Below, in pieces: positions 1 through 12,697 of a DNA stretch of 19,040 nucleotides. Position 1 is the stretch's first letter; every line of letters begins with the position of its first letter. The stretch covers positions 1 to 19,040 of the forward strand of contig CAJVPP010001589.1 in assembly GCA_910592005.1 (NCBI GenBank), in the 5' to 3' direction. Under the pieces are notes generated by a model. The model saw only the letters and a program-made list of their open reading frames with translations, searched no databases and was not told the DNA's origin. Origin of the DNA: Funneliformis mosseae (lineage: Eukaryota; Glomeromycota; Glomeromycetes; Glomerales; Glomeraceae). Position numbers and translations under genes: made by a program.

Positions 1-755
1 CAGTTACTAAAATCAAGCTAGATAGTCTTGAGAATAATTATTAGGTAGTTTTTCTAATATAGTTTTGATATAATTTAATTTATTGTTTATTCTTTAATTT
101 TATAAGTTTGCGAACAAGAGCTTATTTAAATTATCGAATGGTATTGATCCTAATTTCTCTAATTAATAAACCAACCTTTTACATTATAATTTTAATTAGT
201 TAAACTCGTATCATAAACCCAATCTATCATTATTGCTCTCCCATATAAACAAATACATTGATTGTAGTGATTTACTTTGATAATTCTATTGACGCTAACA
301 AGACTTTAGGATTATTAACATAAATTGTTATTCTTCAGATACTTAAAACATTGCTATACGCGTTGAAGTTTACTTTTCAGTCAGTAGACTTCGCAATCGA
401 CTCGTATAACAATATGTAAGATGATTATGAGTCTCTAGCAAAAAAAATTTATAAGGTAATAAAAAAGCACTTTGTGGTTATTGATATCTGAAGACCATCT
501 GATAATCCCTTATCAATTAGATATAAATAGTATAAACCTTTAAAATATAGCTGAATTCGGAAATAATTCGTACTTTGTGGTCTCATCCATATCCATAAAG
601 TAAAGTTTCATAGGAGATAGTCCTATCTTTTAGTTCTTCTGTATATTGGATTGGGAATTCATAACTCTGATTTTTATTTAAGGATATTTATAGTTCAAAA
701 TATTTTTTTCTTCATTATAAGGTGAATTAAAAGAAAATAAATGAGAGAACATGCA
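1..755. other. A+T-rich intergenic stretch, no gene seen
   Basis: No open frame of convincing length and no recognisable protein segment was found on either strand. The only small pattern is a short repeated ACTTTGTGGT at about 471 and 573. The stretch lies downstream of the minus-strand coiled-coil relic and may hold its 3' region or the edge of the mobile element. No terminal inverted repeat matching the right side near 8414 could be recognised by eye. Confidence 0.5.
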
Positions 756-1660
756 TCATAAGAAGTATATAATTAATAATACTATTACGAAAATAATTGC
801 ATGTTGAAAAAAGAAGGAATTGGATAATTTCAGGATTATTTTAGGACTAGTGATGCTGTTATCTTTCTTCAGTTCGCTAACACCTCCAAGCACTTTAGAC
901 TTACTAGATGTTTTTGGGATCTGCTCAGCTAAATGATCATTAGTTTCTTGAAGAAGGGAGTCTTTTTCTATTAATGCTTTTTGTGCTGTGACTAAATCAT
1001 CTTTTATTTGCTCTAATTCATTTTTTTTTCGCTCAATGAATCTTCTAAGTCCATTTTTGCCAAATTTAGATTGGTATTTTATGTAGATAGTTCTATCTTT
1101 TCTAATTCAAATTTACGCTCGAGAGATTTCATTTCTGATAACTCATTCTGTGTTAAAGAAACATCCTGCTCTAATTCTTTTACTCTTGATTGGAGAGCTT
1201 GTATCTCTTCCTTCATCTTGGATTGGAGGACTTGCATCTCCTCTGATTTTATAGAAAATTTGCTTTTAGCATCTGCAAGAAAAATATCTTTGCAAGTAAT
1301 CTGAAACTTAAGGTCATTTATCTCTAAATGCAATTGTTTTATCTCATCTATAAGTTTAGGATCGTTTATTTTTGATTGTAAGTATGCTATCTTCTCTCCA
1401 AGTTGATGCATCTGATTGGAAAATTTCTCATTTTCTTTTCTAGATCTATTTAAGTCATCCTGCATACGCTTGTATTTACTATCTAAGATATCATAGTTAT
1501 CCGCAAACTGGCTTTCCTAATATATAACAACTTCAAAGTCTTTTTTTGCACAAGAAAGTTGTTCTTCAAGATTTGTTCGACTGGAAGGATAATAATTAGC
1601 TGGAGTATCTCCAAGTTTATTACCATTATTTAGATCTTTTAAGGTATGGATCTGAGGCAT
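756..1660 (-). pseudogene. Coiled-coil protein with hydrophobic C-terminal tail, decayed
   Basis: Reading from an ATG at 1660-1658, the frame gives a roughly 300-residue protein rich in Glu, Lys, Leu, Gln and Ser in heptad-like order (for example around LQSKMKEEIQALQSRVKELE), typical of a long coiled coil. It is broken by a TAG at 1517-1519, a TAA at 1079-1081 and a frame shift in a poly-T run near 1021-1029, but coiled-coil sequence continues through each break. After about 1000 the frame runs to a TGA at 756-758 and ends in a hydrophobic segment (HAIIFVIVLLIIYFL) that could be a tail anchor. The open frame also extends about 30 codons upstream of the chosen ATG, so the true start may be further out. 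It is divergent from the gene at 2002. The function is not recognised; by context it belongs to the five-gene mobile cluster. Confidence 0.6.
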
Positions 1661-1735
1661 TTTATTGGTATTTTTTTTTACTTCAGGCAAAAAATCAGCC
1701 AGAGCCTTATGATTATTTTTAGCGAATCTATTGCT

Positions 1736-1975
1736 TATCGATACTTATTGAAAAAAAGATCACTGATACGTATTGAAAAGCACTGGTAGACATTCATACT
1801 TATTGATACCCACTAAAAAAGAATATTGATATATATTGAAGAATATCAATATGTATTGAAAACTATTGATCCATATTGAAAGGCACTGATTCGTTTTGAA
1901 AGGCATTGATATATATTGAATTTTTAGGAATATTGATACATATTGAAAGGTATTGAAAAATTATTGGTAATTTTT
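1736..1975. repeat. Degenerate minisatellite around TATTGATACATATTGAAAGG
   Basis: About ten imperfect copies of a roughly 20-25 bp unit resembling TATTGATAYATATTGAAARG run through this stretch (for example near 1777, 1835, 1865, 1890 and 1930). It fills the gap between the divergent starts of the coiled-coil relic (1660) and the helix-turn-helix relic (2002), so it sits where a bidirectional promoter would be expected. Confidence 0.75.
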
Positions 1976-2001
1976 TTTACATATATATTCTAACTAAAAA
2001 A

Positions 2002-2623
2002 ATGACCATTTATCTCTATAAAAAATTTTATCGATCTAATGCAACCCTGTTAACTGAAGCTGATATTAAGAAAATTAGAGAATCCAGAAGTGGGATACCT
2101 AATGCATCAAAAAAAATAGCTAAAAAATTCCATGTTGGTACTTAGTGTATTTATGAAATATGGAACAATAGTGAACGTCTCCAACAAAGGCTTATTTTAT
2201 CTTTCTCTGATCAGCTTACTTTGAATAAAAATTCCCAAATTGATAAGACAGAACAGACTCTTAAAGTAGTATTAGAAGTATCCCTTCCAGCTACAGAAAT
2301 TCCAAAAAAGAATGGTCAAAAAAAGAAGGTTAAAATAGATGAGAAGCTGGTTATTGAAGCAACCAGTATGATAGAAAAAAATAACAAAAATGATGTGATC
2401 TCTTCTTCTGATAATTTGTCTGATACATCCTGAGAAGCCAGGGTAAAATCTCTTCTTAAAAATCTAGTTAATCGTGATGAAAAGCTTAAGGGTTTAACAG
2501 CTAATACTATCCTTATATAAAGATTCACATATATTAGCAAGAATTTTACCTATATTTAATGCTAAGTCAAGCCATTTTCAGTTTTTAAAAGACACTTTTC
2601 AAGCTCTTTGCACTTTTTTTTAA
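2002..2623 (+). pseudogene. Basic helix-turn-helix-like protein, decayed
   Basis: An ATG at 2002 opens a frame of about 172 codons ending at TAA 2518-2520, interrupted by TAG 2143-2145 and TGA 2431-2433. After a frame shift near 2515, coding-like sequence continues (ILARILPIFNAKSSHFQF) to TAA 2621-2623. Residues about 18-50 (TEADIKKIRES, then KKIAKKFHV and CIYEIW) resemble a homeodomain-like helix-turn-helix of the kind found in transposases and resolvases. Residues about 95-120 are very basic (IPKKNGQKKKVKIDEK), which would suit nuclear localisation or DNA binding. The 3' end overlaps the convergent end of the protease relic by about 60 bp. A DNA-binding accessory protein of the mobile cluster is an inference; no exact family is recognised. 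Confidence 0.55.
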
Positions 2624-2806
2624 GTCCTTCTTACTAGTCAGATTAGAAGAATTAGCTAAAACCTGAGAGCCAAGAGGTGCTTTGCAAGATGATTCCCGAT
2701 CTTCTTTTGACAGATCCTTAACTACTGGAACTTTGCTAAAGGTTGGGATAATATATGCTTTTCCATGTAACTTTATGTGGAACTGGTTTTTATTTAGCTC
2801 AGGGAC

Positions 2807-3452
2807 TAGAGTTCTTAATAAGTTGAATTGAGTCAAGTTTAAAGACTAACTCTATTCAACTCATTTTTTTCGAGTTGAGTCGAGTCAAATTTATTTTATA
2901 AAATCTTTCAATTTGATTTGATTTGAGTTATATAAATTTTAAACTCGACTCAATTTGATTCGACTCGATTTTAACTCGATTCAATTTTGAAAAAAAATAA
3001 TAAAAAAAAAATGAAAAGAACGATTCAGGTCATCGTTCTTCTTAAACGATTTTTTTATCGTTTAAGTCAAACGATTCAGGTCATCATTTTTCTTGAATAA
3101 TTTTTTATCATTCAAGTTGAACGATTCCTTATCGTTTAAGTCAAACAATTCCTTATCGTTCTTCTTGAATGATTTTTTTATCGTTCAAGTTGAACGATTC
3201 AGGTTATCATTCTTCTTGAATGATTTTTTTATCGTTCAAGTCAAACGATTTTTTATTGTTCAAGTCAACTCAAGTCAACTCAAGTCAACTCGAATCAAGT
3301 CAAGTTTAAATCAAGTCGAGTTAAATATTTAACTCAACTTGAATTTGGCTTGACTCACAAATCATCAAGTTAAAAAAACATAAACTCAACTTGATTTGAA
3401 CTCGACTCAGCTTATCTAACTCATGAGTTAACTTGACTCGTCTAAAACTCTA
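2807..3452. mobile_element. Non-autonomous inverted-repeat element (hAT-like MITE) inside the protease gene
   Basis: The ends are inverted: the left begins TAGAGTTCTTAATAAG and the right, read on the other strand, begins TAGAGTTTTAGACGAG. It is flanked by TCAGGGAC (2799-2806) and TCAGGGAT (3453-3460), an 8-bp target duplication with one C/T difference. An 8-bp duplication is typical of hAT elements, but no transposase is encoded, so the superfamily is inference. Sub-terminal DNA is made of GAGTTGAGTC/GACTCAACTC-like motifs in both orientations, and the core is a tandem array of short palindromic units. Excision rejoins the protease reading frame. Confidence 0.75.
3020..3275. repeat. About 51-bp tandem array of palindromic ATCGTTCAAGT/ACGATT motifs
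   Basis: The core of the small element repeats units containing AACGATTCAGGTCATCGTTC and TTTTTTATCGTTYAAGTY at a period of about 51 bp. Each unit carries both a sequence and its near complement (ATCGTT and AACGAT), so the single strand could fold into serial hairpins. A similar-period array is found in the other small element at 6530-7010. Confidence 0.7.
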
Positions 3453-6289
3453 TCAGGGATGCCTTGAACCTTTCAAATATTTAATATACTAAAAATAGCA
3501 TTAGTTCTATTTCATCATTATCAATACAAACAAAATTTCCAATAACTGTGACTGTCTTACCTTCTTTATTCTTTAAGATAACTGACACGTCTGTAAACCA
3601 TCCTAATGAATCAGTGATATGCTTAGAATTGTCCTTTATAGTAAAATTAGATGGTTTATCAGCTTTCTATCCAAGCGCCTTGATTTCTAGGTCATTTAAA
3701 CCACCTAATTCACTGCCAGTATCTAAAAAAGATTCAGAAATAGTTGTCATTTATATTAGCATTTAGATATTATAAAGATGATAACCACTCGTCTGATTCT
3801 TTCGATTCCTCCTCCTGAGCCTTTCAAGATAAGCACATTTTTCGTATTAGTGGTGAAAGCTTAGACAATAGCTGATCATATATTTCAGGTTGGCTAGTTA
3901 CTAGATCAGAAGAAGGGATAGCAGAGTTATCATATAAGCTTTTATTTACTAGCGACTGTTTTTTTTTCTAGTGTATAATACCATGCATTGTCTACTTTAT
4001 CATAATTACCACTATTATCTTCATTATTATTAGAATCTGAAGGCATATTTTGAAAATTTATAGGTGTGAGAGGCTTAAAATAAGACTGATTAAAATTAGA
4101 TTGTACTATCTGTCTATTGGGACAACTGTCTTTACTATGACTAGTTTCTTCATAAATATCACATTTACGTATATTTAGTTTCTTGAATTGATTTGTTAGT
4201 TAATTTACAGCATCACGAGTTTCATCTATTCCCTCCTCTACTCTATTAATTCTAGCAAAGACATTGCTTCATTGTGAACGAGGTCTTTGAAAAGGCTTTA
4301 CAGAATAATCAGAGTCTAAATCTTTCTTGTTAACTATACCCAAGTCTTTTAAGAATTCTGTTACGTAATAATTTTTTATACCTTCCTCTGTCTTTAATGT
4401 AGATGATGGACCTCTTGGCTGTCTAACAGGTTCAACAGTTTGTGAAGCCAATGCCTGTACTTTTGGAGCCATCTGTGCTTGGAATTCAGCTTTCTGGTTT
4501 TCTAATAAAGTTTGATATTCAGTTTTTTGTTGAGCTAATGCATTTTGAATTACTTTTTGCATATCTTCTAAAGAAATTCCTTGCTATTGAAATGTGATAT
4601 TAGGAATGGTAGGAGGGGCTGATAAATAGTTAGAATATAATGGTAATGGTCCTAATATCCTACAACGTAATTCCATTTCTTCTAAACTATTGAGAATATC
4701 ATTAATAGGTTTGTGACGACCAATCGTAATGATGTCATTTAATATATCATGTTTTACTTCAAACATAAAATATGTTTTCTTTTGTGCAGGAGTATAGCCC
4801 AATTGATCTCCATATTTTTGAATTTTTGCCCAAAAAGATGTTATACTTTCATGTGTTCCTTATTTTAATGTTTCAATTTCAAGCATTCTCAAATATCTAT
4901 CAGTAAATGGAAAATGATTTTTAATATGATCTAACCTTTGTTTAGACCAGATTCCTGCAAGAATAATAGGAATACCTTCTCTAGCATTTGGTGTAGCTGG
5001 TATCACATTAGTTGGTCGTCTTTCAGCTATTCTCCAATTTTTATCAAGTCCTCGAACTGGAATAATATCTGCATCTGCAAGACCTAATTGAACATTTGGA
5101 AAAGATGTGACAGCTTCTGTTATAGCCCTGCATTAGCATCACGAATATGAGCTATAGTAGCACCTATAGCTGAGTTATCAAGTATGTTTTATAACTTCCA
5201 GTTTTTATTATCAAACTCTCTTTTGTACCATTCTCGCACTTCTCCTTTTACAAATCGATTCAGTATATTATGAATTTTTACTTCATCATTTAAACCCGCT
5301 AAATAGATATATGCTATAAAATCATCTCTATACTTTTCATGATCCTGTTCAAAACTGCTTAATTTAGGCATTATAAACCCTGCAGGTAAAGCTATATTTA
5401 TTTGATTTAGTGGATTATTCTGTAACACCAAAATTTGTCTCTGCAAAATTAAAATATTTTGCTAAGCATCATAGGTCTTATTCTTCCATTTCTCATATCG
5501 CTCATAGAGTCTATCTCGATTATATTCTAATAAACCTATATCCCCTCTACTTCGCTGTAAGTAATAAGCATTTCACTAATATAGTAGTTGTAAGGCAAAC
5601 TTTTCTCGTACCAGTTCAATTATACGGGTTTACTTTCTTGCTATATTACCTATCATTCTATTTACTAGGTTTTGAGCATTAGTTTGATATTGCTGAAGAT
5701 TGACAATAACTCTTGCTTCTACCCCTTCAGCAAGTTGCTTTTGTATAATTTCATTATTATATTCAGTTTCTGTATTATAGCACCTCTGTTGCTCTTGAAA
5801 TATATCCCATTGTAAAATATTTTCTTTTTAGCAAATTTGCCTTGTTGCTCTTTTTATTTGATCTGCTAAGATTTCTCTACCTGTTGTTAGATTATCTACA
5901 TAATCATCTATAGCGTTTGCTAATTCTGTGATTGTGACTATATTATCATCAGAATTATACAAATCTGGAGAATTATCCCACTCTGAAGAATTTTTTCGTG
6001 ATGAGATAGTCTTGATCTGACATCACAATTTTTCTACCTTTTCCTCAGATTCTAATAATTTCTTTTCTAAGGAAGAGATATACTTATCCTTATCTTGTAC
6101 ATCCTTTTTAGCTTGATATAGCTGAGATTTTAGAGTGGAGATTTCAGATTTCAGTTCCAATATCTCTTCTTCTGAAGTATTTTCAAGCTGTTCTATCTCT
6201 CTATTAAGACTTTGTATCTTTGATTCACATCAAGAATATTCACGTTTCAGCTCTCTGATTCACTTTTTATTCTGACGATTAGTTTCTAC

Positions 6290-7143
6290 TAATGTTCTGA
6301 ATGGTTTAGTTTAGTTCAGATTATAGGCCAATCTGAAACTGAATCAAAAATTTCAGTTCAGTTCAGTTCAGATTATAAATCCTAAAAATACCAATCTGAA
6401 ACTGAACTGAACCATAAACTGGTAAAAATCTGAACTGAACTGAAAATTTTAGATTAATCCAAAATTTCAGATCGTTTGAAATGATCCTTTTACCGTTTTT
6501 TTTGAAATGATAATTTAATCGTTTCAATCGAACGATTTTCTTATCATTCATTTAAAATGATAACTTCAATTATTCCAAATGAATGATTTTTTTATTATTT
6601 GATTAGAACGATAATTTAATCGTTCTAATCAAACGATTTTTTTATCGTTCGTTTAGAATGATAACTTCAATCATTCTAAACAAATGATTCTTTTATTGTT
6701 CATTTGAAATGATAATTTAATCATTTCAATTGAACGATTCTTTTATCGTTTGTTTAGAATGATAATTTAATCGTTCTAATCAAATGATTTTCTTATCATT
6801 TGTTTGGAACGATAATTTTATCATTTGTTTAAAACGATAACTTCAATCATTCTAAATGAACGAGTCTTTTATTATTCATTTAGAATGATAACTTTAATCA
6901 TTTCAAATGAACGATTTTCTTATTGTTCGTTTAGAATGATAACTTCAATCATTTCAAATGAACAATTCTTTTATCGTTTGTTTGGAACGATAATTTCATT
7001 GTTCTAAACAATCTGAAATTTCAGATTAATCTGAAATTTTCAGTTCAGTTCAGATTTTTTTCAGTTTAAATTAGATTTATAATCCAAAAAAATCTAAATT
7101 GAACCAAAAATTTTCAGATTAATCTGAACTGTTCAGAGCTTTA
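6290..7143. mobile_element. Non-autonomous inverted-repeat element (hAT-like MITE) inside the Gag-like gene
   Basis: The left end begins TAATGTTCTGAATGGTTTAG and the right end, on the other strand, TAAAGCTCTGAACAGTTCAG (16 of 20 match). The flanks are GTTTCTAC (6282-6289) and ATTTCTAC (7144-7151), an 8-bp duplication with one G/A difference. Sub-terminal blocks are built from CAGTTCAGATT and AATCTGAACTG motifs in both orientations around a central tandem array. No transposase is encoded. Removing the element plus one target copy fuses the two coding halves in frame (EEEVE to TNRQNKK), which confirms the borders. Confidence 0.8.
6530..7010. repeat. Nine or so tandem units of about 51 bp with internal palindromes
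   Basis: Units follow the pattern GAACGATT, about 8 T-rich bases, ATCGTTYRTTTAGAATGATAA, then CTTCAATCATTCTAAAY, returning to GAACGATT after about 51 bp. Every unit contains ATCGTT/AACGAT pairs in inverted order. The unit length and motif are shared with the array at 3020-3275 although the flanking motifs of the two elements differ. Confidence 0.75.
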
Positions 7144-7256
7144 ATTTCTACTTCTTCCTCTAATATATTTTGAAAATACAAATTATCCTCTTCTAACTCA
7201 GCTTTAATCTCTTTACATGTTCTCCTTTGCCTTAGATGAAGTCTGCGGAATGACAT

Positions 7257-7281
7257 TTTTTTTTTGTGATTATAAAAGAGA
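7257..7281. promoter_or_regulatory. 25-bp gap between divergent Gag-like and integrase start codons
   Basis: Only a T-rich run and TGATTATAAAAGAGA separate the two ATGs (7256 minus, 7282 plus). TATAAAAG at 7271-7278 is TATA-like on the plus strand but lies only a few bases from the integrase ATG, too close for a usual TATA box unless translation begins further in. Promoter elements must overlap the opposite gene's coding region. The regulatory role is inferred from the layout. Confidence 0.4.
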
Positions 7282-8414
7282 ATGAAAGAACCGGTTATTT
7301 ATATCAATCCTCAAAAAGCTCGTGATTTAAACTGACATCTTGCCTTACAAAAGCTGTATTATCAGCCTGAAGATCTGTATCAAAATGCTAAGGGATTATG
7401 GGATACTTATAAAAAAGCTGGCTACAGTCTTATTGATATAAAAAAATGACTTGATAGGCAAGCAATATATCAAATTTTTTGTCTTTCGCCAAAGGATATA
7501 TCTTATGCCAGTTATTCTAAAATCACGAAGCCAACTACTGTACATCAATGTGATTTAATCAAAATACCATATAATGAAGATGTAGATACAAATTTACTAG
7601 ATGATGGCGGTGATCTGAAAATATATTACTATGTACTATTATTTATAGACTATGTGACTAGATATAAAGATTTCATTTTTTTAACATCAAAGAGCAGTGA
7701 GAAAGTTGTAGAAGCATTTAAAAGTATATATTATAATCCTAATAAATCTCTTAACTGGCCTTAAAAAATGCAATATGATAAGGGTACTGAGTTTATGGGA
7801 TACGTGACTTTATTAATAGTGAATATAGCGTTGAGATCTGAAGAATTATAGTATGTTTTAGACATACAAGCTTGGCTATGGTTAACCATTATGCTGGATT
7901 TTTTGAATATAGGGTTTTTAAAAACCAGTATGCAGTAGAGCTTCTTCTATCTACTGGTGAACGCTGTAGAGAATGTGAATGATTTGTAAGGAAAATTGTC
8001 AATAATATGAATGATACCCTAACTCAGCTAATTGGAATGAGTCCTAATGATACCATAAAGCTTGAGCAGATATATTCTAAACTATCAGTAAAATATAATT
8101 GCCTAATAGGTATTGATAAACTCCAGTTGCTAAAAGGTACTACTGTCTGATTTTTGCTTGCTAAAGGAGAATAGAAAAATAATCCTTTTCAATAGTGTAG
8201 AATAACAGATTCAATATGATCCCTTAGCCTACATAAATTTTGATGAATTATTGTTGGAAAGAATCTCCCAATGCCTGTTTTATATTATTTAGATGAATCA
8301 GAGCCTCAATGCCTTTTCGTAAGAGAACAATTAATACATATTAAGAAAGAACCTATGTTGCCCCCTAGCTGAGTATTGAAAGGTAATCAAATGTGTATAA
8401 AGCACTTTTTATAA
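7282..8414 (+). pseudogene. Retrovirus-type integrase (DDE, rve-like), decayed
   Basis: ATG 7282 opens a frame of about 375 residues ending at TAA 8412-8414. The catalytic core shows Asp in HQCDLIKIPY (7552-7554), a second Asp in QYDKGTEF (7777-7779), 74 residues apart, and about 35 residues later the segment HTSLAMVNHY, where the expected third acid is Asn (7884-7886). The spacing matches D-x-D35-E integrases; the Asn would make it inactive. The C-terminus has a typical beta-rich tail (NLPMPVLYYLDE, CLFVREQL). Stops include TGA at about 7333 and 7447, TAA near 7764, TGA near 8149, and a shift near 7800-7830. Integrases insert element DNA into the host genome. The gene stands alone, with no polymerase or RNase H in front, divergent from Gag. 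Confidence in the family is high; confidence in the exact type of element is low. Confidence 0.8.
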
Positions 8415-8870
8415 AATCTCTAAGTCAACAACGCAATAGGGAATTGTAATAAGAATTACTCCTTTTTGATAACATAATGCTTTCTTTTTCCAATCACGTC
8501 ATATTTGTGTATTTAGATTCATCTGTCCTTGTGGATGAAAAAAGGCACAATTTGATAATGTTGATTATCACTATATTCAAAGGCCAAATCTAGCTCTTCA
8601 TTATATCTATCTAGATGTAATCCCTCCAAGAATTTAGATTTTTAGAGTAAAAATTTTTTATTTAATAAATCTTTGAAAATATACCGGCATGTTCTTTCTG
8701 GTATATTAGGGTAAATATTACACCATCTGTAATTCTGTTTCATTTTTTTATATGACGTCTTCCATTGATGATTCTTTTATATAACTATAAATATGTATTA
8801 GGACTAATTTTGCCTAAGCATCTTCCTTCACGTCTCTAGGTATATGCTAAAGCTTTTAGTATTAATTTTG
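8409..8870 (-). pseudogene. Zinc-ribbon plus PD-(D/E)XK-like endonuclease relic
   Basis: In several frames, pieces line up in order on the minus strand: a treble-clef-like part (GRCLG, then NHQW and RWC), an arginine-rich linker (IPERTCRYIFKDLLNKKF), a core LHLDRYNEELDLAFEY followed by NQHY, and a last strand GVILITIPYCVVDLE. The order Asp, then hydrophobic-E-Y, then QHY, then a beta strand ending in IPY is what Vsr/PD-(D/E)XK-type nucleases show. I recall many related proteins in arbuscular mycorrhizal fungi, which is memory and not a search result. At least three frame shifts and several stops make it dead. Its TAA (8409-8411) directly abuts the integrase TAA (8412-8414) on the other strand, so the two genes are convergent and tail-to-tail. 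Confidence 0.6.
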
Positions 8871-9193
8871 TCTTACATTTTATAGGTGCAATAAAATATC
8901 ACATATAGAAATTTGCGGTAGTGATCACTAGCTTCAAATTAATTTGATCAGAAGAATCAATCTGGATATATGCAAATTCAGAAAAGTAAAATTAAACTTA
9001 GTCACTACTATTGCATAAGTAAAAATAAGTATTATCAGTATTCTTAGTGGAAAGTGGTAATTTCAGCTAAAGTACTTAACAATACAGCTCAACAATTTTG
9101 TCTATATATTTGCTCTTTTTATGTATTATTGATATTATTAAATAGATCGATATCTTTTAACAATTTTTTCGTCTGTTTATAAAGATTTTGCTA
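8871..9193. other. A+T-rich spacer, no gene recognised
   Basis: Between the nuclease relic and the F-box-like ORF no frame on either strand gives recognisable protein. It could be the decayed 5' part of the nuclease family protein, which often has repeated zinc-ribbon units, but I cannot show this. Confidence 0.4.
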
Positions 9194-9586
9194 TTATACA
9201 TGAAATTTATTTTGTAAAACAGAAGACTTAATAAGACAGGAAAGAATTCTTATAAGATTATTTATATGGGATTTGATTACTGCATGAATATTTGTAATTT
9301 CTTCTCTTGCTGTAATCCAATCATAATACAGAGTATAAAGAACTGTATGAATATGGGTTATTTCTTGTTTACTCCAGTCTAACCAATATTTTATAAAATC
9401 AAGATCTTTATGAAGTTCCCTTTCTTTTTGCTTTAAAATAACTCGAAATGCTTCAAAATTCCATTGATGATTCACAGTAAGACAGAAATATAGTATATTT
9501 TTAATCTTGAGATTATTAAAAATTAATTTAAGCAGTTCAGAATAAACAAGTGAGCGAGGCCTAGCATTTTTTTGCGCAAGAAGCAT
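9194..9586 (-). CDS. Small F-box-like protein
   Basis: This 130-codon ORF is the only uninterrupted coding frame in the window that also looks protein-like. Residues about 13-45 (SLVYSELLKLIFNNL, then FCLTVNHQWNFEAFRVI) follow the F-box pattern: a Leu-rich helix, I/L-F-x-x-L, then C-x-x-V-N-x-x-W. F-box proteins link Skp1/cullin ubiquitin ligases to substrates. The usual LP at the start of the motif is replaced by LV, and the C-terminal 80 residues form amphipathic helices with two similar stretches (KQEITHIHTVLY and REEITNIHAVIK), perhaps an internal duplication; no leucine-rich repeats or other substrate domain is seen. It may be a short gene or a truncated copy. No intron signals were needed. 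Its neighbours are mobile relics, so it may not be under selection. Confidence 0.55.
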   Translation of the reverse strand: MLLAQKNARPRSLVYSELLKLIFNNLKIKNILYFCLTVNHQWNFEAFRVILKQKERELHKDLDFIKYWLDWSKQEITHIHTVLYTLYYDWITAREEITNIHAVIKSHINNLIRILSCLIKSSVLQNKFHV

Positions 9587-9599
9587 GGTAAAAGCAAAC

Positions 9600-9853
9600 T
9601 TTCAGTATAGATAAATAAAAAGTTTTCAGTATACTGTATGTACACTAATAAAATTTCAAGTTTAAAATAAAAATTTTATAAAATTTCTCGTGAATATGCT
9701 TATCAACTAAGTGTTAGATTAGAAGTAGTATACAAAGTGATCAATATAATAATATTTAAAAGTAATCGATGTAGTAGTACTCCAAAGTATCTTGGAGTAG
9801 TAACTATACGAGAAAAGTTTGAAACGTAGAGACGAAAAATAAGGTATAAATTT
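9600..9853. other. Upstream spacer of the F-box-like ORF
   Basis: A+T-rich with no coding signal. It would hold the promoter of the minus-strand F-box-like ORF, but no clear TATA or CAAT element could be chosen over the background. Confidence 0.35.
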
Positions 9854-9920
9854 GGTAGTATCTCAAGTTAGAATAATATATAAGGAAAGAAAATAAGAAA
9901 TTATAACTTGGGATACTATC
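9854..9920. repeat. Imperfect inverted repeat (17-bp arms)
   Basis: GGTAGTATCTCAAGTTA at 9854-9870 is complementary to TAACTTGGGATACTATC at 9904-9920 with two transition mismatches and a 33-base purine-rich loop. It could be a stem-loop or the remains of short transposon ends. Confidence 0.65.
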
Positions 9921-10011
9921 ACCGATAGGCAGGAAAGGAATCAGGAAGGTAAAAAGGCTTAAGAAAATGCACGAAAAAGGGTATAAAAGCAATATAGCCT
10001 GAACTAATTTA

Positions 10012-10206
10012 GCACTTCGTGTCTTATTCTCAGTAATCAAAAGATAGTTACAAAAGGCAGAATTGTAAGAATAGCACAATACTGGCACTTTACATATATC
10101 TGACTAGTAATAAAAAGTGGGTAAATGGATTGTAATACATCTTCAGCAAATGGATAGATTGCAAATTTGGCACTTCGTGTCTCAACTCAGTAATCAAATA
10201 AGGATA
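10012..10206 (+). repeat. Pair of diverged direct repeats
   Basis: AGCACTTCGTGTCTTATTCT followed by CAGTAATCAAA (from about 10012) recurs as GGCACTTCGTGTCTCAACT followed by CAGTAATCAAA (from about 10168). Both copies are followed a little downstream by AGAATTG-AAG. The spacing is about 156 bp. The origin is unknown; it may be an old tandem duplication. Confidence 0.6.
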
Positions 10207-10397
10207 GAATTGCAAGCAAGCAAGTTCAGCACTAATTCCTAGCAATTATATAAGCCGATCTTAGTACTTCTAATTCTCCAACCATCAGATCCTCTAGTCA
10301 GAACCTCAAAGTAACAGAAAAGTGACAGAGAAGTAATAGAAAGGTTCTAGAAGCGTACTATGCACATGATTTTTTTTTAACGCAGTAAATTACAATA

Positions 10398-10454
10398 CCG
10401 TATTCTTCTAAAAATAAGCAACACTTTTTTGTTATAATGTTGCTTATTTTCGGG
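10398..10454. repeat. Left terminal inverted repeat with sub-terminal motif
   Basis: Contains the 25-bp terminal repeat (reading outward as GTTGCTTATTTT) and, after a short T-rich spacer, GTTGCTTATTTTCGGG at 10439-10454 in the opposite orientation. The two form a hairpin-like pair. These are probable transposase binding sites. Confidence 0.8.
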
Positions 10455-10587
10455 TAGTTTAATAAAATAAAAGAAATTCAATCATGCAACTACCTAATCA
10501 TGTGATTTTTATTGATCAAATCATTTGCGATTTATCACGTAACATGCGAAATAGGTTTTAAACAGGTTTTATTTTTTTTTATATAAA

Positions 10588-12040
10588 ATGGCAAAACGAA
10601 AAAGGGTAGTTAAAACTGTTAAACGTAAAACTCAAATTGTAAAATGAATATGAAATTCATACTCAGTTGAACATAAAAAGGAGGTCATTGCCTACGTAAG
10701 GAACCATGAAAATAACGAAGCAGCAAGACACTTTGATATTGATCATGGTATGGTGAGTCAGTGGGTAAATGCAAGTTCGAAATGAACAAGTGAAACCAAG
10801 AGGAAAAGCAAGCGAGTTGGCTCTGATAGAAAAGCCTTATTTTCAGAAGTAGAGAAAAAGCTTTATACCTGGATTATACAACAAAGAAAACAGGGTCTTT
10901 CAGTAGCCTACATAACCATAAGAAACAAAATGTTAGAGATCTTAAAAGAACCTGAAATGGTGGTTCTTTATGGTAATGTAGGTGAAGACTTTAAAACATC
11001 TCAATGTTGGATATTGGGCTTTATGAAAAGATTTAATTTAGCATTGCGTAGACGAACTAAAATTTCCCAGAAACTTCCTGATGAAACTCAGGAACAACTA
11101 GAGAAATTTTACCAGTTCATTAAAAATTTAAGAATTGAAAAGTCTTTCAAACTAAATAACATCCTTAATATGGATGAAACTCCGGTTTAGTTTGACATAG
11201 CCGGTGTTTATATGATTAACCCTAAAGGAGAGAAGACAGTTCATATTTGAGCCACAGAAAATGAAAGGAACTGATTCACAGTAGTCAATACATGTGCCGC
11301 AGGTATCATTCTTTTTTTTTTTTATTTTTTATTTCTTTTACTTTTCCCGCCTTTCCACTTAATTTTTTTTTTCTTTTTCTTTATTTGATTTTTTTAATCT
11401 TACAATAAACAGGTTCAAATTCCCATCAATTTGTATTTTTAAAGGCAAACGAATGTCACGTGGAGAAAAAACACCTCTGGGAATCATCATTTGGTTTCAG
11501 ACCAATGGTTGGATGGATACCAATTTGATGCAGAGATATATAGATTATTTCAACAATATAAGGGTGAGAAATGGAACACAAGAAGATCTGGTAATGCTTG
11601 TTTACGATTCATTTAGAGGCCACTTAGAAGATTCAATTAAAAAAAGATTTCATGAAAGTGGTGTTTATCTCGCGGTAATCTCAGGCGGATTGACAAGTAA
11701 ATGTCAACTACTTGATGTCTCCATTAATAAGCTGTTTAAGAACAATCTTCGAAAGGAGTGGCATTTTTGGATGGCAGATGGTGATGTCGGAGAAACCACC
11801 TCAGGAAATCTTCGCTGCGCAAGTCTTAATGATGTGTGTTCATGGGTAAAACGTTTGTGGGAGGGTATTTCTACTGATATAATTGTTAGGTCCTTTAAAA
11901 AGTGCAATATTTCAAATGATTTGAACTTGGGTGATATTAGTGATGACAATCATAACGATGATGATTATGACGATGATATCACTGATAATGATTCTGATAC
12001 TACTGTTAGTGAGAATAATATCATTGACATCATAGATTAA
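10588..12040 (+). pseudogene. Pogo/CENP-B-type DDD transposase, decayed
   Basis: ATG 10588 opens the frame. The N-terminus holds a helix-turn-helix (SVEHKKEVIAYVRNHENNEA, then ARHFDIDHGMVSQWV) and a second CENP-B-like DNA-binding part up to about residue 140 (KISQKLP near its end). The catalytic domain has Asp in NMDETPV (11173-11175), Asp in YDSFRGHLE (11606-11608) and Asp in LLDVSINK (11714-11716), the last two 35 residues apart, so all three catalytic acids survive. The C-terminal tail is strongly acidic (Asp/Asn runs from 11928). Exon 1 carries stops at 10645, 10651, 10783, 11188, 11248 and 11272; exon 2 is open from before 11453 to 12040. A one-base deletion just after the intron probably shifts frame. 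It cuts and pastes the element at TA sites; this copy cannot make a full protein. Confidence 0.85.
11303..11412 (+). other. T-rich intron in the transposase gene
   Basis: The sequence begins GTATCA and ends AATAAACAG, is about 110 bp long and more than half T, with long pyrimidine runs. It interrupts the transposase between TCAA (before) and KFPSICIFKGK (after), which are contiguous in related transposases as I know them. The joined exons are one base out of frame, best explained by loss of an A in the AAA run just after the acceptor. Confidence 0.65.
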
Positions 12041-12218
12041 TTTTTTTCCACTAGAAATTTTATATTTTTTGGATGAACACTAATTTCATAATATTTTTTT
12101 TTTATTATAATAATAAAATAAATAATTGAATGCATTTATAATATGTTTATAAAGCTAAATTATTTATTTATTTAAAAAAAATTTTATTAAAAAAAAAAAA
12201 ATTCAATTTTTCTGAAGT

Positions 12219-12293
12219 GTTGCTTATTTTCGGAATCTATATAAAACAGGTGTTGCTTATTTTCGGGGGTTGCTTATTTTCAGAAGAATACGG
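12219..12293. repeat. Right terminal inverted repeat with three GTTGCTTATTTTC copies
   Basis: Three direct copies begin at 12219, 12252 and 12269, the last running into CAGAAGAATACGG, the element end. The asymmetric number of copies (two left, three right) is probably a transposase-binding array. Confidence 0.8.
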
Positions 12294-12419
12294 TAATTCG
12301 ACTAGTCATAATTTTGGGTGATCTAAGGACGCTAAAATTAACTAAAATAAAGTCATGTGATTTGACTGTGCTACTTGACTACAACACGATTTTTAGCAAA
12401 CAATGCCAGCTTAGCATTA

Positions 12420-12600
12420 TGGTCACAAAAAGACCGCAAAGCAATGAAAACAAGCGAATAGCTAGAAGAAAATAAAAGAGGATAGAGCAATAAAATCAAG
12501 CAAATATCTATAAAGCAATAAAAAAGCTATAGAGTAATAAAATCAAGTGGATAGCAATAAAGCAATAAAAAGATCATAGAATACGAAAACAAGTAAGTAG
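12420..12600 (+). repeat. Loose tandem repeat of AAGCAATAAAA / AATAAAATCAAG
   Basis: AAGCAATAAAA-like and AATAAAATCAAGYRGATA-like words recur at roughly 45-60 bp (near 12490, 12515, 12536 and 12560). It is a degenerate, purine-rich satellite-like stretch with no coding signal. Confidence 0.5.
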
Positions 12601-12657
12601 GTAACCATTTACTCATAATTAGATAACAATTTACTCATAACTAGGTAATATTATAAC

Positions 12658-12697
12658 TGAACTGGATAACACTCTTATAAAAGTGTTATCCAGTTCA
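12658..12697. repeat. Perfect 16-bp hairpin
   Basis: TGAACTGGATAACACT (12658-12673) and AGTGTTATCCAGTTCA (12682-12697) are exact complements around the 8-base loop CTTATAAA. In DNA this A+T-rich, such a long perfect arm is striking. It sits just before and over the first codons of the relic frame at 12683, so it could be an old transposon end, a foot-print, or a structured 5' region. Confidence 0.85.

Follow-up and report, generated by a model that had tools for sequence, protein, structure and literature searches.

The segment from 412 to 12694 of the window (the whole 19,040-nucleotide stretch of Funneliformis mosseae DNA analysed here) is one decayed, left-truncated copy of an element that is repeated in its own genome. 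It is probably the inactive remnant of a DNA element that resembles Polintons and viruses and resides in arbuscular mycorrhizal fungi, the capsid module of which consists of a retroviral Gag and a putative retropepsin. Members of the element family encode an integrase of retroviral type, a packaging ATPase of Pox_A32 type and a Gag-Pro polyprotein (coil, CA domain, CCHC knuckle and DTG/DSG motif), and better-kept copies of a second lineage carry a family-B DNA polymerase on the unit that holds these three genes. Capsid function and DNA packaging are predictions from gene content.

Results

Extent and gene content of the window copy

A first-pass annotation placed a five-gene unit at 756-8414, made up of a Gag-like protein, a separate DTGS protease, an integrase, a helix-turn-helix (HTH) protein and a tail-anchored coiled-coil protein. 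These relics do lie close together on both strands (Table 1), but the unit is longer, running from the 3' tip of the ATPase gene to a 34-bp palindrome, Gag and protease form one gene, and the ATPase tip, an endonuclease-like relic and a pogo insertion are also present. What was described as a convergent overlap is the HTH gene meeting the tail of gag-pro. Position 412 was initially read as the left terminus of the element, a reading that was dropped once homology among other copies proved to continue to its left, indicating truncation; in those copies this sequence includes the Pox_A32 packaging ATPase, of which the window retains the last codons.

Table 1. Features of the element copy in the window
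Feature	Position	Strand	Remarks
Element copy	412..12694	.	Homology to other copies begins at 412 and stops at 12694
Relic of the C-terminal end of an A32-type packaging ATPase	420..527	+	Other copies have the ATPase body to the left of 412
Coiled-coil protein with C-terminal hydrophobic (tail-anchor-like) segment	759..1744	-	Matched in copies
Helix-turn-helix-like protein	2001..2433	+	
gag-pro	2588..7256	-	N-terminal coil; CA domain ~5461-4600; zinc-knuckle region ~4170-4110; retropepsin motif
AT-rich repeats inserted within gag-pro	~2803..3452	.	Missing from copies mapped across the site
DTGS active-site motif of the retropepsin-like part	3712..3723	-	From sequence
Inverted 51-bp repeat array inserted within gag-pro	~6291..7140	.	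Missing from copies mapped across the site
Integrase (rve fold)	7282..8399	+	Divergent from gag, the two start codons 25 bp apart
Endonuclease-like zinc-ribbon gene relic	8522..8776	-	Beyond integrase; sequence pattern CRYIF..FLEGL.LD.YNEEL.LAFEY
Uncharacterised ORF	9197..9586	-	Counterpart in other copies
Subterminal repeat region	9700..12660	.	Broken up by the pogo element
pogo-like DDE_1 transposon inserted in the element	10396..12295	+	27-bp TIRs, TA flanks
Terminal palindrome, 34 bp	12661..12694	.	One mismatch against the common form; right end of the element

Among the smaller genes, the HTH protein has a weak Pfam match (HTH_28, 0.063) in a better-preserved copy, L044, only. The ORF at 8522-8776 returned no Pfam match, and its putative endonuclease-like function is our own reading of its sequence. 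An F-box identity considered for the ORF at 9197-9586 was dropped, as Pfam gave no support.

A palindrome and subterminal repeats close the element in the window lineage, and the same palindrome and repeats terminate integrase arms and, on contig C796, the far arm. A comparison of the two window ends at the DNA level gave no useful repeats, and no long terminal direct repeats were found in the window, where the left end is truncated; the ends read elsewhere are palindromes. Polintons have terminal inverted repeats and a 6-bp target duplication; here each contig shows at most one end of a given copy.

A single gag-pro gene

Gag and protease are encoded by a single minus-strand gene that runs from an ATG at 7254-7256 down to ~2588 and is cut by two inserted arrays. 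The piece at 2588-2845 belongs to the tail of the protease part and is no gene of its own. The larger insertion is flanked by 12-bp copies, TTAGTTTCTACT and TTAATTTCTACT, that agree at 11 of 12 bases.

The Gag structure model matches the capsid domains of retroviruses, Arc and PEG10 in Foldseek with weak E-values (best 0.09), and the Retrotrans_gag profile was not reported for P0127 and gave only 0.37 for P0129; the CA domain fold of an Ortervirales-type Gag is taken to be present. The zinc knuckle was called on the standard CCHC spacing. The retropepsin assignment draws on the DTG/DSG motif and on weak scores for Asp_protease (0.011-0.025) and DDI1 retropepsin (0.53). The protease part of the structure model was poor (P0073, pLDDT 43), and this model was set aside for the protease call.

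Were the element an ordinary Polinton/Maverick that keeps an unseen jelly-roll capsid gene, gag-pro would be cargo, for example an antiviral or regulatory gene. The integrase, ATPase and family-B polymerase are all Polinton-like, as that explanation would have it, and positions 1-9000 of contig C1881, together with parts of one of the element's arms (arm 2), lay outside the pieces scanned. No double jelly-roll major capsid or penton gene was found in those pieces, to which the search was confined, and a hidden capsid gene could sit in the 3.3 kb between polymerase and gag on C1881 (4549-7863). Against this, gag-pro adjoins the integrase in both lineages and has a third-position excess similar to that of the integrase in a codon-position test (the test was not significant for the HTH gene and type-B ATPase of relic copies). 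Furthermore, the capsid domains diverge far more among Gags than the common coil does, as expected for a selected shell protein, and early-described Rhizophagus irregularis Polintons are themselves named as lacking a detectable MCP in a published survey (PMC7805220). The cargo explanation is accordingly considered improbable. No Ulp1/adenain-type cysteine protease was seen in the pieces scanned, where a retropepsin-type motif is present instead.

Recurrence of the gene cluster

The association of these genes is not a chance pile-up of relics, because the same arrangement recurs in many other copies. At least one of polymerase, integrase and ATPase accompanies Gag on 35 of the 39 Gag contigs scored, leaving four with none of the other three genes. 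The integrase is present on 26 of the 39, head to head with Gag on 20 of these and on one strand with it, 4-9 kb apart, on the remaining six, while polymerase, Gag, integrase and ATPase occur together on seven contigs in one order and orientation. The suggestion in the first-pass annotation that several relics had been assembled by accident therefore fails, and the genes do not, as a rule, occur independently elsewhere. Its other two suggestions, a DNA element built with retroviral parts and a portion of a larger element with its polymerase outside, are both supported; the polymerase of better-kept copies belongs to family B. Named homologues are from Glomeromycotina; no relative came up in IMG/VR for the ATPase, for the endonuclease-like ORF or for an alignment of integrases.

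LTR elements possess Gag, a CCHC knuckle, a DTG/DSG protease motif and an rve integrase, and all four are present here, as they would be in a non-autonomous or fused LTR retrotransposon, that is, Ty3/gypsy gag-pro-int relics that lost reverse transcriptase (RT) and lie in or beside a DNA transposon. This origin is highly improbable. In 20 of the 26 contigs that hold both, Gag and integrase diverge from each other rather than forming a gag-pro-int polyprotein encoded on one strand, the ends that could be read are palindromes with subterminal repeats, and ATPase and polymerase travel with Gag and integrase. The absence of RT claimed for the window also held: none was seen in the element pieces scanned, RT was not enriched near Gag or integrase, and none of the 39 Gag contigs holds any of the best 150 of 709 RT candidates. 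In LTR elements, RT and RNase H lie on the gag strand.

DNA polymerase, helicase and the probable unity of the element

Three genes by which Polintons/Mavericks are recognised were found in the family: an rve integrase, an A32/FtsK-HerA-type packaging ATPase, of which the window copy keeps the 3' tip only, and a family-B DNA polymerase, the last by profile position only. The third catalytic residue of the integrase is D in intact relatives and N in the window copy. A32 ATPases carry a Walker A and a GRH motif. The polymerase (profile PF00136) lies upstream in better-kept copies and is lacking from the window contig; by profile position only, it is upstream of the integrase on nine of ten shared contigs and upstream of the ATPase on 19 of 19. 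The protein-primed-type profile PF03175 matched only two other contigs, C2643 and C2982, both without these element genes, and their polymerases were rejected as the element's own, as neither overlapped the element loci identified at that stage.

The polymerase copies come mostly from the second lineage, and a polymerase lies near the terminal palindrome of the window lineage on one contig only, C716. In the window lineage, the long arm encodes a helicase of the origin-binding type: two arm-2 pieces of C796 match successive positions of the Herpes_ori_bp profile (4.7e-4 and 0.028, both below the cut-off). This division of genes, the palindromic end shared by helicase-stretch contigs and integrase arms, and the fact that no contig spans the whole element would also suit two mobile families with common termini, one bearing the helicase and a second, shorter one, to which the window would belong, bearing Gag, integrase and ATPase, with one parasitising the other. 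That arrangement is a minor but real possibility. It is opposed by gene order: C796 and C2076 share the order arm 2, helicase stretch, palindrome, and on C95 arm 2 is followed by ATPase, gag, integrase and palindrome, an overlap of orders that links arm 2, helicase, ATPase, gag and integrase in one unit.

Discussion

For a single Gag-bearing DNA element, the gene content suggests the following cycle. The DNA would be copied by the element's own polymerase or, in the lineage that has the gene, by host enzymes with the element-encoded origin-binding helicase. Gag would assemble a shell that is matured by its own protease, two functions for which ordinary Polintons use a jelly-roll capsid and a cysteine protease, the ATPase would load DNA into this shell, and the integrase would insert the DNA into the genome. 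The fullest reading, for which the balance tips only slightly in favour, is of a class of Glomeromycotina dsDNA virus-like elements in which Gag-protease replaces the Polinton jelly-roll capsid, an A32-type motor packs dsDNA into the Gag shell, elements exchange Gag capsid domains, and a core segment (ATPase, coiled-coil/TM, HTH and Gag-Pro) inverts between two arms through recombination at short inverted repeats that consist of integrase 5' ends.

Many eukaryotic dsDNA viruses are regarded as related to Polintons, many of which have genes for jelly-roll capsids; Gag is a property of reverse-transcribing viruses. The present family resembles Polintons/Mavericks in being a large DNA element with an rve integrase, an A32-type packaging ATPase and a family-B DNA polymerase. 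It differs in having Gag-Pro where a jelly-roll capsid and a cysteine protease would be expected, a polymerase that matches PF00136 and not the PF03175 usual for Polintons, palindromic termini, and core genes in both orientations. With the Gag-Pro of Metaviridae (Ty3/gypsy), and with Arc and PEG10, the family shares the fold of the CA C-terminal domain, the CCHC knuckle and the DTG/DSG motif, whereas here no RT was found alongside and the genes are part of a DNA element that also encodes a packaging ATPase. The helicase resembles herpesvirus-type origin-binding proteins through its Herpes_ori_bp matches, but is encoded by a mobile element of fungi that also has integrase and Gag. Ginger/TDD elements are small, use a stand-alone integrase as transposase with TIRs and a short target duplication, and are not known to carry a packaging ATPase, DNA polymerase or Gag; the extra genes found here exceed that family. 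The likeness lies in their being DNA transposons with a gypsy-type integrase (PMC2836005).

No report of a Gag-bearing Polinton was found in the open-access literature searched, which excluded preprints. If the reading is true, a polymerase, an integrase and a packaging ATPase joined to Gag-Pro would represent a capsid exchange between two virus realms, and would suggest that an ATPase is able to load DNA into a Gag lattice. It would also offer a candidate answer to the missing capsid gene of the early-described Polintons of R. irregularis (Glomus intraradices). The same fungal group and element class are concerned there, with 'Maverick' repeats reported to have undergone a recent expansion in R. 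irregularis, and these may be the present elements listed under a repeat name, although the available passages of the two reports (PMC7805220, PMC8647823) contain no Gag, retropepsin or linkage of Gag, integrase, ATPase and polymerase. Some of the many repeats left unclassified in R. irregularis, reported as 32% of the genome (PMC8647823), may also prove to be this element.

A probable Polinton-like element with Gag-Pro

The gene layout of the first-pass annotation, with Gag, DTGS protease, integrase, helix-turn-helix (HTH) and coiled-coil/transmembrane genes clustered on mixed strands, is correct in outline, and stop-to-stop reading recovers the same pieces. There is good support for assigning them to a Polinton-like element that carries Gag-Pro. 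The relics recur together as colinear copies in the 82-Mb genome from which the window comes (4154 contigs; the window is C1589), and when 32 loci were mapped back onto the window the colinear copies spanned three stretches without them, which are therefore insertions into the window copy. With the insertions removed, the Gag and protease pieces join as one gene. Spacing of the 12-bp flanks at 6291-7140 is, in our reading, MULE-like, and related arrays are also located elsewhere in contigs C3402, C95 and C1397. In a Pfam scan of single pieces the pogo piece matched DDE_1 at 3.5e-18 and the top integrase piece scored 0.065, single pieces generally having decayed too far to score strongly.

Genes and insertions of the window copy
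Feature	Position	Strand	Description
Coiled-coil/transmembrane pieces	1744-759	-	stop-to-stop reading
HTH-like gene	2001-2433	+	stop-to-stop reading
Gag and protease pieces	7256 to 2588	-	stop-to-stop reading
Insertion in gag-pro	2803-3452		AT-rich array of 51-bp palindromic repeats
Insertion in gag-pro	6291-7140		AT-rich array of 51-bp palindromic repeats; flanking 12-bp copies identical at 11/12 bases
Integrase	7282-8399	+	stop-to-stop reading
pogo-like DDE_1 transposon in right arm	10396-12295		27-bp TIRs, TA flanks

DNA searches gave at least 143 matches to window 1-9200 (34 of 1798 candidates scored) and at least 67 to 8400-10395 (40 of 121), both lower bounds because only part of the candidates was scored. 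The window, C625, C337, C2136, C1397, C4 and C95 terminate in ACTGGATAACACTCTTATAAGAGTGTTATCCAGT or a close variant of it, beyond which their flanks are unrelated; C897 ends in a different palindrome. Allowing up to 3 mismatches, the terminal 34-mer was found at 50 places, spread over 49 contigs, compared with none for a reversed control, and all eight further places examined had the same subterminal repeat region on one side and differing sequence on the other. The window copy is truncated at its left limit, 412, since the sequence shared by C625, C95, C1397 and C749 continues to the left of it; other copies have a P-loop gene there, of which the window retains only 'DDYESLAKKIYKVIKKHFVVIDI*RPSDNPLSIRYK' at 420-527. 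Pox_A32 matched this gene above cut-off in the C2707 copy (3.7e-5) and in the homologous protein P0003 (3.9e-12), and the packaging ATPase slot holds two diverged subfamilies (28-34% identity) on opposite strands.

Gene linkage across the genome

Integrase gave at least 111 matches on 83 contigs (104 of 337 candidates scored) and the ATPase at least 148 on 120 (144 of 268); they share 53 contigs against 2.4 expected if independent, contig sizes ignored, and lie within 3 kb of each other in 41. The annotation had proposed searching longer copies for a reverse transcriptase or DNA polymerase, and a family-B DNA polymerase (PolB, PF00136) does occur on contigs shared with Gag, integrase and ATPase. 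PolB gave at least 98 matches on 59 contigs (93 of 108 candidates scored, same-contig fragments merged), a few of which are probably host polymerases. It shares 10 contigs with integrase, and in all of these except C1058 the two genes run on one strand with PolB 6.0-7.7 kb upstream. PolB shares 19 contigs with the ATPase, which is always downstream on the same strand, at 8.2-11.5 kb in 18 and 16.8 kb in one. PF03175-type polymerases were seen on C2643 and C2982 (loci L049 and L050) and the stretches read there contained no gene of the element; L050 resembles a different mobile element.

Gag (query P0089) was found on at least 39 contigs (43 of 616 candidates scored), 26 of them also carrying integrase, 29 ATPase and 12 PolB; 35 have at least one of the three and four have none. 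Gag and integrase are head to head in 20 of their 26 shared contigs and otherwise arranged in six. Gaps between head-to-head pairs are 28-82 bp in 11 and 129-2981 bp in nine, where the match often stops short of the gag 5' end. All four genes follow one order and orientation on seven contigs (C1069, C1881, C2340, C2750, C413, C493 and C582).

The best 150 of 709 reverse transcriptase (RT) candidates, spread over 144 contigs, coincided with integrase on three contigs (2.9 expected), with ATPase on four (4.2 expected) and with Gag on none (1.35 expected), so that, among these candidates, RT does not generally belong to the unit. An ordinary LTR relic is disfavoured.

Two arms and two lineages

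Among hand-mapped loci, 11 have the integrase arm joined to gag and seven have it joined to the ATPase (counted by eye, leaving out the gag-like C3906 and C789 and the unclear C337). Around 60 bp comprising the integrase promoter and first codons is shared, inverted, on both arms at all four junction types, and recombination between these stretches could flip the core of ATPase, coiled-coil/transmembrane, HTH and Gag-Pro genes. Besides other gene families, the far arm of C796 encodes a helicase resembling origin-binding proteins, with two matches to consecutive parts of the Herpes_ori_bp profile, 4.7e-4 and 0.028, both below cut-off. The 4-kb stretch bearing it occurs on 34 contigs, and the terminal palindrome is present on 13 of them (0.4 expected); the helicase part itself is matched by at least 150 bases in 17 of the 34, six with the palindrome. 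On one contig, C716, a PolB lies 3.4 kb inside the palindrome.

In the second lineage integrase, ATPase, Gag-Pro and PolB are co-located on one repeated unit; the window lineage has the same gene set with no polymerase seen, but has palindromic ends. C1881 and C3436, of the second lineage, share 83% of positions across 5361 bp; in both, a head-to-head gag and integrase pair is followed by an endonuclease-like ORF and the ATPase, in long open frames. Their differences by codon position show a third-position excess in integrase (37, 40, 92; P 4e-8), ATPase (38, 24, 61; 2e-4) and gag (12, 7, 25; 0.003). Bias was not significant in relic copies of HTH (0.34) and type-B ATPase (0.07).

Homologs and proposed mechanism

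Protein homologs at E 0.01 or better numbered 62 for ATPase (of 96 candidates), 72 for Gag (of 7993 scored) and 40 for integrase (of 619). Those with an organism in the listed name are all Glomeromycotina, and many others are metagenome proteins. Judged by protein similarity, homologs of the element extend over several genera (Rhizophagus, Gigaspora, Cetraspora, Dentiscutata, Diversispora, Acaulospora, Glomus and Paraglomus), and several have long intact reading frames, with lengths of 397 aa for integrase, 265-280 aa for ATPase and 1066 aa for Gag-Pro. ATPase and integrase sequence is fused in a gene model of R. irregularis (P0172) and in one of R. clarus (P0168), so the two genes share a neighbourhood in other genomes.

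The element would be replicated by its own polymerase or with its helicase, Gag would form a shell matured by the protease, the ATPase would load the DNA and the integrase would re-insert it. Gag as a DNA-packaging shell is attractive but unproven. Alternatively, though less probably, Gag may be cargo and a jelly-roll capsid gene may lie in C1881 1-9000, which includes the 3.3 kb between PolB and gag. One survey lists the Polinton described early from Glomus intraradices (R. irregularis) with those in which no major capsid protein was detectable (PMC7805220). In papers on R. irregularis transposable elements, Maverick is counted with the recently expanded families and a large part of the repeats goes unclassified (PMC8647823, PMC11075540), and in an NCLDV survey a DNA polymerase of R. 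irregularis was placed with Asfarviridae (PMC5294986). One strain is known to carry an asfarvirus-like insert of 1.5 Mb, and the words gag and integrase are absent from the portion of that paper examined (PMC10640383). No element combining Gag with a Polinton or packaging ATPase was found in the open-access papers searched, preprints excluded.

The third catalytic residue of the window-lineage integrase is D in intact relatives (AMVDRYAGLF), including P0137 and P0140, N in the window relic, and E in the second lineage (L066) and in P0175. The last, an integrase 35% identical with 104 member sequences and a largest contig of 658,820 bp, may point to a relative of the element in organisms other than the fungi named here. 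In the Gags P0065, P0089, P0123, P0127 and P0075 the N-terminal coils are related and the attached capsid domains far more divergent, as if exchanged or diverging under selection. At locus L012 (C1177, 91-1617) the coiled-coil and HTH region is approximately 86% like the window, and beside it lie zinc-knuckle and protease-like ORFs without a match to the window gag-pro, a pattern that we read as suggesting module exchange between elements.
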